Of a DNA stretch of 64,000 nucleotides, positions 23,897 to 29,863 are shown in pieces (the stretch's first letter is position 1; each line of letters begins with the position of its first letter). Under the pieces are notes generated by a model that searched no databases, was not told the DNA's origin, and saw only the letters and a program-made list of their open reading frames with translations. Where the stretch lies: the NCBI GenBank assembly GCA_021775735.1, contig JAJFHG010000075.1, positions 1 to 64,000 on the forward strand. Direction: 5' to 3'. The stretch comes from Hyphomicrobiaceae bacterium (lineage in GTDB: Bacteria; Pseudomonadota; Alphaproteobacteria; Rhizobiales; Hyphomicrobiaceae). The position numbers and the translations under genes are program-made.

Positions 23897-24362
23897 GGGC
23901 TACTCTATGAAACAGCTGCGGGCCTACGAAGGGCGGTGATTGGCACTAAATTTGACGTGAGTTTGGTAAATGGAAGTTAAAATCTCAGCGATTTTTTGGG
24001 TGAGCCTAAGATAATTCGACCTAATTGGCTCTGAAGTCCCTCCTCCAGGTGGAAAGTTGCAGCTGCCAAGACCTGCAAATGGGCTGAGATCCACGATAAA
24101 CTGCACAGCGCGCCCCTACTCCGATAGACAGAGCCTGGCCGCAACGGCACTATAAAGGCAATCTGAGTCTCAAAGCGAGGCCTGAACACGATTGAGGTTG
24201 ATACGAGACCCAAGACCATTTTCTGTTGGTGAATGCGGCACAAACCAAATGCCGATTGTCAGCCCCAAAATGATCGGCTTATACCTCGTCATCGCCGCAA
24301 TAGCCGATCACAATCCGAGACGAGACCTCAATGGACTTTTAGACGGCACACAAGAGGACGTT
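23897..24362. other. Divergent intergenic region, cpdR / amidohydrolase
   Basis: About 466 bases between divergent starts. An open frame runs into the amidohydrolase from 24192, but its sequence does not look like family protein. No clear promoter, terminator or repeat is seen. Confidence 0.5.
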
Positions 24363-25262
24363 ATGCCAGCCGAAGAGCGCGCCGCAATCGAAGCTGAGTT
24401 GGACCCTCCGTTTAAGGTCCACCGTCCGGCCGAGCAAACCACACCCGTGGTCTTCTGCTCGCCGCACTCAGGTCGAATCTACCCGAGACATTTCCTCAGC
24501 CAGTCCCGCCTTGATGCCAACCAGCTGCGTAAATCCGAAGATGCCTTTGTGGACGAACTCTATGACTGCGCCCCCGAATTCGGTGCACCGCTGATCACGG
24601 CTGAATTTCCGCGCGCGTACCTGGACGTCAATCGCGAACCCTTTGAGCTGGATCCAGATTTGTTTGCTGAACCGTTGCCGGATTTTGCCAACATGCACTC
24701 AATCCGTGTCGCTGGTGGCCTGGGCACGATAGCGCGCGTGGTTGCTGACGGTGAAGAAATCTACGAGCACCGATTAAGATTTGGCGCAGCCCTTGAACGG
24801 ATCGAACGACTCTATCGTCCGTTTCATACGGCCCTTGAGGGTTTGCTTGAAGAAACGCGCCAAAAGTTTGGCTTTGCAATTCTCATTGATTGCCATTCGA
24901 TGCCATCTAACTTAATGGCATATAACCCGGGCGTTCGACCTGATTTTGTCATTGGTGATCGATTTGGTGCCTCATGCGATCCCAGATTAACTGAAGTGAT
25001 TAACACACACCTTTCAGCACTCGGCTATGAGGTGTTTCTCAATCGCCCATATGCGGGGGGCTTCATTACTGAAAACTACGGCAAGCCCACACATGGGGTG
25101 CACGCAGTGCAGTTGGAGCTCAATAGGTATCTGTATTTGGATGAAGCCCGGATCGAAAAGTCTGATGGCTTTTCAGCTGTCCGAAAAGACCTCACTACAA
25201 TGATTGCGCGCCTCGTCGATGTTGCGCCAACGCTCTCGACACGGGCGGCAGCTGCGGAATAA
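24363..25262 (+). CDS. N-formylglutamate amidohydrolase family protein (second copy)
   Basis: 299-residue FGase-family protein, closer to HutG-type sequences than the copy at 16905-17747. Visible are VVFCSPHSGRIYP (about 30-42), the EFPRAYLDVNREPFELDP segment, ILIDCHSMPSN, and NRPYAGGFITENYGKPT before the end. The ATG at 24363 has GAGG six bases upstream and begins at the family's usual start. No other histidine-degradation gene is in the window, so the substrate is assumed only from the family. Confidence 0.9.
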   Translation: MPAEERAAIEAELDPPFKVHRPAEQTTPVVFCSPHSGRIYPRHFLSQSRLDANQLRKSEDAFVDELYDCAPEFGAPLITAEFPRAYLDVNREPFELDPDLFAEPLPDFANMHSIRVAGGLGTIARVVADGEEIYEHRLRFGAALERIERLYRPFHTALEGLLEETRQKFGFAILIDCHSMPSNLMAYNPGVRPDFVIGDRFGASCDPRLTEVINTHLSALGYEVFLNRPYAGGFITENYGKPTHGVHAVQLELNRYLYLDEARIEKSDGFSAVRKDLTTMIARLVDVAPTLSTRAAAAE

Positions 25263-25380
25263 ATGCCCGCACCTTCCCTTTAAGGCAGCCTAACAATCCG
25301 AAAGACCTCGCTTGGTTGCCAATCTTGGCTGGCTGTATGCATGGAGTTGGCAGCAACACGGGCCACGTGACCCTGTAAAG

Positions 25381-25473
25381 AAAAAAGGCCGTCCATAAAA
25401 ATGAACGGCCCAAGTCTAGGGAGGAAACGCCCGAGATGGGCGGCGGTCCAACGGAAAAACCGTCGATATCGCA
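25381..25473 (-). ncRNA. Small RNA candidate 1 (anti-SD motif, tandem copy)
   Basis: Read on the minus strand, about 93 nucleotides: small hairpin (25451-25463), GC-rich hairpin CGCCC/GGGCG (25428-25442), then unpaired TTTCCTCCCTAGACTT. A nine-base terminator stem follows (25387-25395 with 25402-25410), with six T residues. A promoter fits: -35 TTGCAA (25503-25508), 17 bases, -10 TAATTT (25480-25485). The CCTCC core is complementary to Shine-Dalgarno sites, as in the rhizobial families alpha-r14 (NfeR1) and alpha-r8/MmgR. Family membership is not established. Confidence 0.72.
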
Positions 25474-25644
25474 ATGCACAAATTATGTGGGCGCTGCACC
25501 ATTTGCAACTGCTTTTTTTGCAATGCAGCTAGAACCTGACCGCGTGAGACTGGAAAAAAAGCCTCAATTTAGCCGCGCAAAGCAGCAATCCAAGACTGCC
25601 CAATCGTTGGCGCCAAGCTTGCAATGCATTGATTTTTAAGAGAA

Positions 25645-25740
25645 AAGAGGCCGTCCACAATGATGAACGGCCCAAGTCTAGGGAGGAAACGCCCCAAAAG
25701 GGCATACGGTGCTGATGAAGTGCATCAAATCACCGTGTTC
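25645..25740 (-). ncRNA. Small RNA candidate 2 (anti-SD motif, tandem copy)
   Basis: Second copy, minus strand, same layout as the copy at 25381-25473 and sharing a 31-base identical core (25663-25693 here, 25401-25431 there). The 5' arm is a different hairpin: ACGGTG 25706-25711 with CACCGT 25731-25736, with GATG/CATC inside. Next come a GCCC/GGGC hairpin, the same unpaired TTTCCTCCCTAGACTT and a terminator stem (25649-25657 with 25664-25672) with interrupted T residues. Loop bases differ between copies while stems are kept, which supports RNA function. The promoter is less clear (TTGCTG at a plausible distance). Confidence 0.7.
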
Positions 25741-26137
25741 AAAAGCATGCGCCTGTTCGCTGATTCCAGCAATTCACCGATTGGTTGAGTTGTGGGCATT
25801 TAACCCTCATAGGTGTGTTTTCATCACACTCTATCCCCGATCCGGTGGATTTTGTTGCTCAGCTGTGCAGAATCTCGGTGTTTTCCACAGGGCTACAACC
25901 CTAGCTTAGACCTCAAAGCGAGACCGGGCCCGTGACTCAGTGTCGTTTCGAACCGCCGCCACGGCGCGATCAAAAACCATTTTTAGGTTGTGCAGCCACC
26001 TCGGCAGACTAATCATCAGACATTTCATAAATCATTTCCGTTTTACGACAGAGTGATCTAGCCCTTGGCCACACCCGCGGTTAACGCTATCACCGCCATC
26101 TTTAAGACGAGCCATTCTTCCTGCCCTTGGAACTGAC
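25741..26137. other. Intergenic region before the hisN-like gene
   Basis: About 400 bases with no convincing protein gene or repeat. It holds the presumed promoter of the second small RNA at its left end. Confidence 0.5.
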
Positions 26138-26944
26138 GTGCCCAAAACACCCGCATTAAATGCCCGCTCCGCATTGGCCTTCGCACACGACCTCGCGGAT
26201 CGTTCCGGCGCAGTCACATTGCGCTACTTCCGCAAAGACATCAGCGTTGCCAACAAACTCTGTGATGGCGGCTTTGACCCGGTGACAGCAGCAGACGAGG
26301 CCGCAGAACGTGTTATGGCAAACCGCGTGGCACGCACATTTCCACACCATGGCATTATTGGCGAAGAGTACGGCACGACCGGAAATGACGCACGTTATAG
26401 ATGGGTGTTCGACCCAATCGACGGCACCCGCGCGTTCATCATGGGCCAACCCATGTGGGGCACGTTAATTGGTCTACTCGATGGCGATGAGCCAATTCTT
26501 GGCATCATGAACCAACCGTTCACTGGCGAGCGTTTTTGGGCGAGCCAAGATGCTGCTCACTATCGGTTAGGAGAGGGACGCGCCAAACGCATCAAAACAC
26601 GTCGCGGTGTCAAACTATCTTCCGCCATTCTGACCACAACACATCCTGATCTGTTTACTGTCGCGCGTGACGCCAAGGCCTTTGCGCGTCTTGCCGAAAA
26701 AGTACGTATGACGCGCTATGGCGGTGATTGTTATAATTATAGCTTGCTGGCCGCGGGCCATATTGATCTGATTGTCGAGGTTGATCTTAAACCACACGAC
26801 ATCGTCGCTCTTATCCCGATTGTCGAACGCGCTGGCGGTGTGATCTCAACCTGGGCTGGACAACCTGCCATCAATGGTGGTCGCATCATCGCGTCTGGCG
26901 ATAAAAAACTACACCAAGCCGCGCTAAAGATATTGAATCGGTAG
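26138..26944 (+). CDS. hisN: Inositol-monophosphatase-family phosphatase, histidinol-phosphatase-like
   Basis: 268-residue Mg-dependent phosphatase. Metal-site motifs are present: GEEYG (about 74-78), WVFDPIDGTRAF (about 90-101), and GGDCYNYSLLAAGHIDLIVE followed by KPHDIVALIPIVERAGG. The C-terminal motif wording is that of the histidinol-phosphatase HisN group rather than SuhB inositol phosphatase, but the two are hard to separate by eye. The start is a GTG with GGAAC upstream. No other his gene is adjacent. The tandem small RNA candidates lie upstream on the other strand. Confidence 0.85.
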   Translation: MPKTPALNARSALAFAHDLADRSGAVTLRYFRKDISVANKLCDGGFDPVTAADEAAERVMANRVARTFPHHGIIGEEYGTTGNDARYRWVFDPIDGTRAFIMGQPMWGTLIGLLDGDEPILGIMNQPFTGERFWASQDAAHYRLGEGRAKRIKTRRGVKLSSAILTTTHPDLFTVARDAKAFARLAEKVRMTRYGGDCYNYSLLAAGHIDLIVEVDLKPHDIVALIPIVERAGGVISTWAGQPAINGGRIIASGDKKLHQAALKILNR

Positions 26945-27250: not shown

Positions 27251-29134
27251 CTATTTCGAGGCCCGCGGGTCGGCCGCATCAAGGATTTGAAGCTCAATTT
27301 TATCGCGCCCACCCCAGGTGTCGCGACGTAGCTGACCAGCGACATGGATCGGCATGCCAGCAGAGGTCAGCAGCAATTCACCCAGCGGTTGATCGGCAGC
27401 GCGAAAAGCGATGGCGTCGATGCGGCTGCCATCGCCTGCTTGCAGCGCACAGCGCACATGAGCACCGCCCACCACTTTGGCAAAGCGCACACTCACACTT
27501 GGAAAGGCAAAACTTGGTTGCGGATTGCCTTGCCCATAGGGTCCGGCTTGCTCCAAAAGGCCAACCAGGGTGTGATTGGCAGCTGATGGAGTCAAAGCGC
27601 CATCAAGCGACAGACTTGGCGCTTGGCGCTCACCAGCTTCTGCGGCAGCCACTTCGCGGTTCAAAAATACCTTGAGTGCATCAAGTTTCCCACGCGTCAC
27701 AGTCAGACCTGCAGCCATGGCATGACCACCACCTTTAACAAGCAGGTCTTCATCAACCGCCTGGCGGATGGCGCCACCAATATCAACGCCTGCGGTAGAG
27801 CGCAAAGACCCCGTGCCTTGGATGGTGGCGCCATCGCCCGACTGCTCCCAAGCAATGACACAGGTTGGACGATGGAAACGCTCAACTAGGCGCGAGGCAA
27901 CGAGACCGACGACACCCTTGTGCCAATCACGACCATCCACGACCAGCATCGCCAGATCCGGATCCGTCGCCAGTGCCAACTCTGCTTTGGCGACAGCCGC
28001 CTCTAAGACATCCGTTTCGATGTCTTTGCGATCTCGATTGAGCTTATCAAGTTGGGCTGCAATTTTTGCGGCTTCGGTTTCATTGTCATCACTGAGAAGT
28101 TGAGCACCAAGACCAGCGTTGCCGATCCGACCACCGGCGTTGATGCGCGGCCCAAGAATGTAACCCAAATGATAAGGTGACGGCGCATCGGAAAGACCTG
28201 CAGCATCAGCCAGAGCGCGCAAGCCCACGTTGTTTCGGCTCTTCATCACCATCAAACCCTTGGTGACAAACGCACGGTTCAAACCTTTGAGCGGCACAAC
28301 GTCTGCAACAGTTGCTAACGCGACCAGATCTAAGAGTTGCAGCAGGTCGGGTGCTGAAATTGTGCCGTTGTACGTGTCGCGCCTTTTGAGTTCGCGGACA
28401 ACACTTGCCAATACGAGAAACACAACGCCAGCCGCACACAGGTGACCCTGACCAGAAAGATCATCCTGACGATTAGGGTTCACGATGGCATGGACTTCGG
28501 GGAGCGTCTCATCGGCCTGGTGATGATCAATGACAACAACGTCGACATCGCGCGCGGTGGCCGCCGCAAGCGCTGTACCACTTGTGGTTCCACAATCGAC
28601 AGTAATGATAAGACCTGCACCATCATCTATCAATTTGTTCAACGCATCGGGGTTTGGGCCATAGCCTTCCAATATACGATCTGGAATGTGGAGTGCGACG
28701 GCGCATCCATCGTGGCGTAAAAATTTGGCCCACAATGCCGCCGAACACGCACCATCGACATCATAGTCACCAAAGACTGCAATCTTCGTACCCGCTTCAA
28801 TGGCATCAGCAATCCGCTTCGTGGCTTTGTCCATGTCCTGAAGAGAACTCGGGTTTGGCATCAGGGACTTGATGGTCGGATTGAGAAAGAGCTCAACCTC
28901 ATCCACACCGACGTCGCGCGCTGCCAGCACGCGACCAAGCAATTCTGGCACACCGTGTTGCTGAGCAATCGTTGTCGCAATGCCAACTGACGATGCTTTG
29001 AGACGGTCTTGCCATGTTTGATCGCGCACTGATCGGCTGACCTGCAAAAGGTAGGGGGCTGCATCTCCGCCCATAGCCGGGCGATCTGGTTCAGCATCAG
29101 ATTCAACGGGTTGCTTTTTAAGTGCTGCCGCCAT
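27251..29134 (-). CDS. recJ: Single-stranded-DNA-specific exonuclease RecJ
   Basis: 5'-3' exonuclease on single-stranded DNA used in recombination and mismatch repair. The 627-residue protein carries the DHH motifs FGDYDVDGACSAAL, ITVDCGTT and VVIDHHQADE, then the DHHA1 domain with KGGGHAMAAGLTV, and the C-terminal OB-like part. The ATG at 29134 follows GGGGATCC; a reading to 29200 adds 22 residues without a site. It lies in the conserved order aminotransferase, hom, glpX, recJ, but here a phasin and a secreted protein gene are inserted between glpX and recJ. Confidence 0.95.
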   Translation of the reverse strand: MAAALKKQPVESDAEPDRPAMGGDAAPYLLQVSRSVRDQTWQDRLKASSVGIATTIAQQHGVPELLGRVLAARDVGVDEVELFLNPTIKSLMPNPSSLQDMDKATKRIADAIEAGTKIAVFGDYDVDGACSAALWAKFLRHDGCAVALHIPDRILEGYGPNPDALNKLIDDGAGLIITVDCGTTSGTALAAATARDVDVVVIDHHQADETLPEVHAIVNPNRQDDLSGQGHLCAAGVVFLVLASVVRELKRRDTYNGTISAPDLLQLLDLVALATVADVVPLKGLNRAFVTKGLMVMKSRNNVGLRALADAAGLSDAPSPYHLGYILGPRINAGGRIGNAGLGAQLLSDDNETEAAKIAAQLDKLNRDRKDIETDVLEAAVAKAELALATDPDLAMLVVDGRDWHKGVVGLVASRLVERFHRPTCVIAWEQSGDGATIQGTGSLRSTAGVDIGGAIRQAVDEDLLVKGGGHAMAAGLTVTRGKLDALKVFLNREVAAAEAGERQAPSLSLDGALTPSAANHTLVGLLEQAGPYGQGNPQPSFAFPSVSVRFAKVVGGAHVRCALQAGDGSRIDAIAFRAADQPLGELLLTSAGMPIHVAGQLRRDTWGGRDKIELQILDAADPRASK

Positions 29135-29482: not shown

Positions 29483-29863
29483 ATGGCCAATCAAAATCCT
29501 TTTGAAATTCCAGAGCAGATGCGCAAAATGGCGGAACAAAGCGTTGAACAAGCGCGGAACAACTATGGCCAGTTTATGGAAGCCGTATTGAATGCACAGA
29601 GCATGTGGATGTCTTCCATGCCAACCAACAGCGCAACAGATGGCTTCAAAGAAGTTCAAAATCTCGGCGTGAAATTTGCCCGAGAGAACTCCGAAGCCGC
29701 GCTTAATCTGGCCAGCGAAGTTTCTAAAGCCAAAGATTATTCTGAAGTACTTCAAATCCAAAGCCGTTATGCACAAACTCAAATGCAAACGTTCGGCATT
29801 CAAGGCCAAGAAATGGCAAGCTTAATGAGCACAATGGCGCAACGTGCCGGCACAGGCCGCTAG
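29483..29863 (+). CDS. Phasin family protein
   Basis: 126-residue phasin, a protein coating polyhydroxybutyrate granules. The sequence is amphipathic helix almost throughout, with EQMRKMAEQSVEQARNNYGQFMEAV at the start and LASEVSKAKDYSEVLQIQSRYAQTQM in the second half, both typical of the phasin domain. AGGAGA five bases before the ATG fixes the start. The PHA synthase gene is about 5 kb away in this window, so granule metabolism is supported by context. Confidence 0.93.
   Translation: MANQNPFEIPEQMRKMAEQSVEQARNNYGQFMEAVLNAQSMWMSSMPTNSATDGFKEVQNLGVKFARENSEAALNLASEVSKAKDYSEVLQIQSRYAQTQMQTFGIQGQEMASLMSTMAQRAGTGR

Follow-up and report, generated by a model that had tools for sequence, protein, structure and literature searches.

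Tandem alpha-r8 (MmgR-type) small RNA genes with two types of promoters, and a candidate antisense sponge RNA, in the family of Hyphomicrobium

The window studied here, i.e., the whole stretch of 64,000 nucleotides from a Hyphomicrobiaceae bacterium, carries on its minus strand two adjacent small RNA (sRNA) genes of the alpha-r8/MmgR type, named copy D (on the side of the FGase gene) and copy U (on the side of HisN). This pair is constituted by members of a known RNA family at its known place. We consider it quite probable that these tandem alpha-r8 genes are driven by different promoters, with copy D likely repressed by PhaR, and that a separately encoded and conserved antisense RNA acts as a sponge of both. 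Transcription of these genes, repression by their products, and the actions of PhaR and of the sponge are what we infer from sequence. The new part is the division of promoters (tandem siblings with the same seed and two promoter classes, one of them with PhaR-type boxes) together with the conserved antisense partner, both being computational findings. If true, the scheme would amount to a three-RNA circuit, in which a PhaR-controlled alpha-r8 and a differently controlled alpha-r8 share a common antagonist. The features of the window are collected in Table 1.

Table 1. Features of the alpha-r8 locus in the window (strand "." where none is given)
Feature	Position	Strand	Basis
alpha-r8/MmgR sRNA, copy D	25372..25448	-	cmscan; predicted transcript ~25473-25378
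alpha-r8/MmgR sRNA, copy U	25634..25710	-	cmscan; predicted transcript ~25737-25639
anti-Shine-Dalgarno 10-mer UUUCCUCCCU, copy D	25418..25427	-	pattern match; 10-mer per PMC12559287 (partial text)
anti-Shine-Dalgarno 10-mer UUUCCUCCCU, copy U	25680..25689	-	pattern match
intrinsic terminator, copy D	25386..25411	-	terminator scan
intrinsic terminator, copy U	25648..25673	-	terminator scan
20-base site UCCCUAGACUUGGGCCGUUC in copy D, complementary (G-U allowed) to the candidate sponge (contig C3)	25403..25422	-	
same 20-base site UCCCUAGACUUGGGCCGUUC in copy U	25665..25684	-	
promoter-like TTGCAA-17-TAATTT, copy D	25480..25508	-	read from sequence; similar in relatives
promoter-like TTGCTG-17-CATGCT, copy U, GCGAACAGGCG in spacer	25744..25772	-	read from sequence; similar in relatives
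PhaR/AniA-type box (complete motif as published), 5' of copy D -35	25513..25533	.	motif scan
further half motif YGCRNYGCR of the PhaR type, overlapping the predicted copy D start	25470..25478	.	motif scan
FGase gene (PF05013), usual alpha-r8 neighbour	24192..25262	+	Pfam E 4.7e-76; predicted start
HisN histidinol-phosphatase, other flank	26138..26944	+	TIGR02067 306.7 bits, cut-off 275.15

The alpha-r8 pair and its locus

The original prediction described two minus-strand sRNA candidates, possibly of the alpha-r8/MmgR type, about 260 bases apart, each with an anti-Shine-Dalgarno stretch between a 5' hairpin and an intrinsic terminator. When compared with Rfam by cmscan, both segments gave full-length matches on the minus strand, within 25372-25710, to RF00519 (suhB/MmgR, alpha-r8; the Rfam title of suhB is 'Makes More Granules Regulator RNA'), with 65.2 bits (E 3.5e-11) for copy D and 60.3 bits (E 6.1e-10) for copy U, over a cut-off of 41. 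The copies start 262 bases apart and form a 63-nt repeat of 89% identity, and both contain the 10-mer UUUCCUCCCU given for the family in PMC12559287, a paper that was available in part. The identical core that had been noticed is present, with a length of 32 bases instead of 31 on direct reading (ATGAACGGCCCAAGTCTAGGGAGGAAACGCCC on the plus strand), and the sequence TTTCCTCCCTAGACTT, with up to two mismatches, was found within the 64 kb just in the two copies, where 0.01 were expected. The two intrinsic terminators were recovered by the scan, which found 2 against 1.6 expected in shuffles, so that by itself the scan is weak; their loops differ and their stems are kept, as predicted, and since the stems are identical between both copies they provide no covariation. 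Folding predicts the 5' hairpin in both copies. Regarding the proposed single-strandedness of the anti-Shine-Dalgarno stretch, it was seen in copy U, where UUUCCUCCCU is unpaired in the fold, but not in copy D, where its CCU pairs with bases 3' of the terminator that the folded segment included. Both copies therefore have the layout of alpha-r8, a 10-mer after a weak hairpin and a Rho-independent terminator, with a predicted single-strandedness that is clean for copy U alone. Hfq is encoded in the genome.

The surroundings are also those of alpha-r8, in such a way that the PF05013 gene adjoins the copies (the FGase of the window is below the HutG cut-off of NCBIfam), with CpdR beyond it. The source genome belongs to the family that holds Hyphomicrobium, in which alpha-r8 matches were detected at E<=0.001 in 99 of 103 genomes, and above the cut-off in 97 of 103. 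Among the 30 best-scoring loci of this family, 8 have three occurrences of the 10-mer, 21 have two and 1 has a single one. FGase and HisN were found in 29 each, and the loci where one of them was not found are truncated by the end of a contig. The copies of the relatives lie between two opposite-strand genes, with promoter and terminator on the strand of the sRNA, instead of being conserved only as a plus-strand coding leader, which was the finding named beforehand as contrary to the prediction. In the available text of PMC12559287, alpha-R8 RNAs are described in all Alphaproteobacteria except Rickettsiales, mostly as a single copy beside the FGase gene, with the 10-mer single-stranded and with several copies, some of them adjacent, in many genera; the pair of the window fits this description. 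Other suhB matches in the same genome were weak (24.3 bits or less). A putative third copy at G000:C31 (38.2 bits, below the cut-off) was discarded, as it is actually the BjrC1505 sRNA (RF02356, 86.8 bits; L003:1508-1648), which also has a CCUCCC motif and matches the suhB model weakly.

Membership in alpha-r14/NfeR1, raised as well in the original prediction, found no support. Rfam contains models for both alpha-r14 and alpha-r15, and besides tRNA only suhB (RF00519) reaches its cut-off in the window. It is true that a CU-rich anti-Shine-Dalgarno motif is common to these families (PMC3927594 and PMC7143759, both available in part), but alpha-r14/NfeR1 RNAs, with an Rfam model of their own, bear CCUCCUCCC in the loops of hairpin modules, and alpha-r15/AbcR RNAs have three stem-loops and two CU-rich unpaired motifs, whereas the copies of the window have a single motif, located in the spacer and not in hairpin loops, and lie at the alpha-r8 locus. 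That they are RNAs of the alpha-r14/NfeR1 or alpha-r15/AbcR type is thus extremely improbable.

By homology with SisA of Caulobacter crescentus, an alpha-R8 RNA for which Hfq-dependent repression via the 10-mer at Shine-Dalgarno regions was shown by others (PMC12559287, partial text), both copies would be trans-acting, Hfq-dependent repressors of the MmgR/SisA type, with UUUCCUCCCU pairing with the Shine-Dalgarno regions of their targets. The same source describes sisA as adjoining FGase and SisA-D as siblings of this family with differing promoters; SisB-D are dispersed and have unrelated promoters, whereas here the siblings are in tandem and their promoter types recur across the family. MmgR from Sinorhizobium meliloti shares with the copies of the window the Rfam family RF00519 and the 10-mer, and a PhaR/AniA-type box is reported for mmgR (PMC12542648, also available in part), like the one at the FGase-side copy. 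According to PMC12559287 (partial text), S. meliloti has no alpha-r8 sRNA other than MmgR, whereas the locus studied here has two copies, and the box occurs mainly at one of the two.

Promoters of the two copies and a proposed link to PHB

The promoter TTGCAA-17-TAATTT predicted for copy D is present and has similar counterparts in relatives, but it is missed by a generic sigma-70 scan, which detected no promoter in the region of either alpha-r8 copy. On reading 97 distinct alpha-r8 copies, two promoter types were seen. Searched by regular expressions, the TGCA type was recognized in 35 of the 41 D copies against 2 of the 41 U copies, and the GCGAA type in 28 of the 41 U copies against 2 of the 41 D copies, these classes being set by copy order, with a few misplaced (e.g., L176, L179); the D copy of the window itself matches neither of them.

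For PhaR/AniA of S. meliloti, the published motif reads WNWD2NYGCRNYGCRNH2WNW, and mmgR is among the genes listed with a site (PMC12542648, partial text). The full motif upstream of copy D is one of 2 matches in 64 kb, where 0.82 were expected, and as two or more were found in 17 of 100 shuffles, this box is not significant alone. The half motif YGCRNYGCR was detected in 39 of 41 D promoters, where mononucleotide shuffles give 1.0, and in 5 of the 41 U promoters, where they give 1.1; third copies had it in 9 of 11 cases and single copies in 3 of 4, for shuffle values of 0.5 and 0.1. Across the window it is not enriched (60 seen, 54.6 expected), in such a way that the evidence for a PhaR input is the recurrence of half boxes at D promoters and not their frequency in the window. 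The promoters of the candidate sponge presented below showed no excess of PhaR boxes (2 of 31, with 1.2 expected). The genome has a gene for PhaR. These data suggest that copy D is under PHB control like mmgR and copy U is not; copy D would probably be repressed by the PHB-sensing regulator PhaR/AniA, and copy U would answer to something else. A third half box lies between both sRNA copies, at 25620-25628.

Whether alpha-r8 siblings are redundant, and whether all of them serve carbon metabolism, are questions left open by PMC12559287 in its available part. As the siblings lie here side by side under different promoters, one of them with PhaR-type boxes, the question of redundancy can be tested at one locus.

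The original prediction had connected the pair to PHB through the phasin and PhaC encoded in the window. On the input side the link stands, given the half boxes at copy D and the PhaR gene, and on the output side it is weak. The start region of the phasin gene (Phasin_2, 29486-29863) pairs with alpha-r8 at the 5th percentile of the background, so phasin is at most weakly suggested as a target; phaC, at the 49th percentile, finds no support as one. Phasins are classic targets of PhaR, and no YGCRNYGCR box was found near that of the window, the closest ones being at 27441 and 30403.

A candidate sponge RNA and its conservation

When the alpha-r8 locus was searched against its own genome, three places beyond itself were found, namely 9570-9595 of contig C3 (92% identity over 26 bases, E 0.002) and two others with E values of 0.09 and 0.59. 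The C3 place reads GAACGGUCCAAGUCUAGGGA on the minus strand, and is complementary over 20 bases, including G-U pairs, to both alpha-r8 copies. The putative gene has around 100 nt and contains a segment of 16 bases that is antisense to both copies at their spacer and at the foot of their terminator, with TTGACA-17-CATGGT upstream and a terminator-like hairpin downstream; generic scans at this place returned no sigma-70 promoter, and one terminator for 0.7 expected. Searched back against the genome at E<=0.1, the region matched only itself and the two alpha-r8 copies, and its duplex with each of them was better than all of 1000 shuffles. No Rfam model matched the sponge at cut-off in 10 loci, where one suhB match had 27.1 bits and was on the opposite strand. 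The terminator of the sponge covaries: of the 14 pairs in the model, 9 have changed at both positions, all of them in the terminator, a number that none of 500 shuffles attained; the small hairpin of the antisense segment is invariant and therefore uninformative in this respect. In relatives, the terminator hairpin often precedes a poor U tract. An A-rich stretch lies 5' of the sponge hairpin, which we take to be a possible site for the distal face of Hfq.

The distribution of this RNA was analyzed by two ways. A 16-mer pattern scan of a collection of 84,980 species returned 52 stretches, of which 28 are sponge, 1 (L115) is neither, and 23 (Rhizobium, 'Rhizobiales bacterium', L121) were discarded for being alpha-r8 itself read on the other strand. 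TTGAC[A/G]-17-CATnnT was present in 31 of 32 distinct loci of this first set; L115, which lacks the promoter, was dropped as sponge. A covariance model (R1) built from 30 rows was matched at E<=0.01 in 59 of 102 family genomes and 15 of 25 genera, or 58 and 14 excluding G021, the sole match of its genus (27.3 bits). There was no sponge match in the other 43 genomes, though nearly all of them have alpha-r8. In the whole order, 26 of 347 genomes had a match at the same threshold, 13 of them in the family of Hyphomicrobium; the 13 from other families, with 10 candidates scored per genome, were all of 29.1 bits or less, and we claim no sponge for them. Extra matches of R1 in G081 (C52, C24), G089 (C183) and G068 (C3:2328104, an alpha-r8 locus) were left uncounted, each genome having a proper match elsewhere.

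The core was found in 59 of 62 loci read, all 59 with TTGACN-17-NANNNT, although 31 of these 59 had previously been kept for having a promoter (with L115 dropped). In L132 the core differs by one base and the promoter is of the type just described; L155 and L156 belong to elements of another kind and are not sponge. With L132 there are 60 loci (8 of them repeats), i.e., 52 distinct regions, all with a 17-base spacer, and with a -10 of the form CAnnnT in 52 and CATnnT in 47. PCu(A)C, a frequent neighbour of the sponge, was also looked for in G021 and in 29 of the family genomes that gave no model match, and was found in 27 of these 30; of the 30 loci scanned next to it, three had weak partial sponge sites without TTGAC in the upstream sequence displayed, and the rest had none.

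At least 15 contiguous pairs with the sponge of the same genome are possible in 68 of 72 alpha-r8 copies from 33 genomes, a count partly built in because the segment was located by a regular expression close to the complement, and at least 12 pairs in 70 of 72; two of the four copies below 15 were also below 12. Shuffled sponges reached 12 contiguous pairs in 8 of 3600 cases, with a maximum of 17. One alpha-r8 copy from G086 (stem foot AGGCC), outside the filter and not among the 72, would pair less well. As the loci had been found through the 16-base segment or through a model that contains it, invariance and pairing counts are in part built in. A less biased set is that of the 21 distinct regions to which the model led, one of which the pattern scan had returned as well. 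Only 4 of these 21 have the scan sequence GGTCCAAGTCT[A/G]GGGA, and most of the variants are C/U facing G or A/G facing U, changes that preserve the pairing. The exceptions are L132, mismatched close to the 5' end of the segment, and the g14 members and G100, where an inserted base limits pairing to stretches of at most 15. One of the alpha-r8 copies of G097 has GGACC and the sponge there GGUCC, a full Watson-Crick match. As the alpha-r8 side hardly varies, these data speak of conservation of pairing more than of rich covariation. A third alpha-r8 copy at L172 (G077), with an altered core CCTCCCAGACTTCGGGGCC as in a diverging sibling, pairs with the sponge over just 12 bases.

The neighbourhood is also conserved. 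CoaBC, on the opposite strand, was found upstream of the sponge in 35 of the 38 loci whose sequence extends far enough, and PCu(A)C, on the same strand, is within 600 nt in 24 of 55 loci, a figure that comes from tblastn with a single query and so is partly a limit of sensitivity. These data bear on one alternative, an ordinary redundant tandem duplication of alpha-r8 plus an inverted, decaying and functionless duplicate as the antisense segment, for which it counts that adjacent copies are already known (PMC12559287, partial text) and that the segment is short and itself alpha-r8-like on the other strand. We hold this to be unlikely, as the segment recurs in synteny across many genera, its 52 distinct regions bear the TTGAC-17-CAnnnT promoter, the terminator covaries, segment changes in the 21 model-reached regions mainly keep the pairing, and the promoters of the alpha-r8 copies differ in kind.

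The antisense RNA could instead be a target of alpha-r8 or a leader, for example the 5' leader of glpD in the genus of the window, where in two genomes, and only there, glpD follows the sponge directly and on the same strand. In 8 other loci with a glpD match this gene is 2.2-4 kb from the sponge (many loci being too short to tell), and a terminator-like hairpin stands between the sponge RNA and glpD. A protein-coding leader was discarded since ATG is found 4-12 nt after the segment in just 2 of 60 loci; any start codon is found at that distance in 23 of 60, about chance by our estimate. A target or leader thus seems to us rather improbable.

Proposed sponge action and comparison with CrfA

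The partner RNA most likely acts as an alpha-r8 sponge, similar in role to CrfA and with another site, as its complementarity suggests. In the proposed mechanism, the small hairpin GGUCC-AAGUCUA-GGGA would offer its loop AAGUCUA to the UAGACUU of alpha-r8, the duplex would spread into the 5' arm of the alpha-r8 terminator and the 3' half of the seed, and the sponged alpha-r8 would be blocked or degraded; the 5' half of the 10-mer is left free by the sponge. Like CrfA of Caulobacter, which is trans-encoded and whose stem-loop is complementary to every one of the alpha-r8 siblings (PMC12559287, partial text), the candidate is encoded in trans, is complementary to the sRNA siblings and is conserved, in loci found through the segment itself. 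CrfA is described there as pairing with the 10-mer core (G33-C45 of SisA), whereas the candidate reaches just the UCCCU of the 10-mer and otherwise covers AGACUUGGGCC and the foot of the terminator, and for this reason, judged by the described site of CrfA, it was not classified as CrfA.

We tend to believe, with fair confidence, that the family of Hyphomicrobium encodes a conserved alpha-r8 sponge that does not use the site of CrfA, has its own promoter near coaBC, often with PCu(A)C in between, and would attack the spacer and terminator foot and not the seed. If true, alpha-r8 would be sponged at two different sites in two orders, and this second sponge would point to alpha-r8 as a hub against which lineages evolve RNA off-switches again and again. 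Our search of the literature, which covered few subscription journals, gave a single paper on any alpha-r8 sponge, PMC12559287, and none for this family; in two other papers that name MmgR, in their available parts, 'sponge' refers to AbcR or GcvB.

Some further observations were made on these loci. In L155 and L156 (G081, contigs C52 and C24), GGGGAGGAAA would pair with the alpha-r8 10-mer itself, and the TTGAC promoter was not seen; they possibly represent another antagonist or a Shine-Dalgarno context. The 130 bases at the sponge are identical in several genome pairs, such as L058 and L103 (H. facile), and L051, the only relative in the genus of the window, shares its sponge region with L118, from an alphaproteobacterial bin. 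Besides H. facile, H. sulfonivorans (L076) has the sponge gene. Finally, a -10 of the CATnnT type (25744-25749 in the window) and a 17-base spacer are common to copy U and the sponge, unlike copy D, in such a way that copy U and the sponge may share a regulator or a sigma factor.
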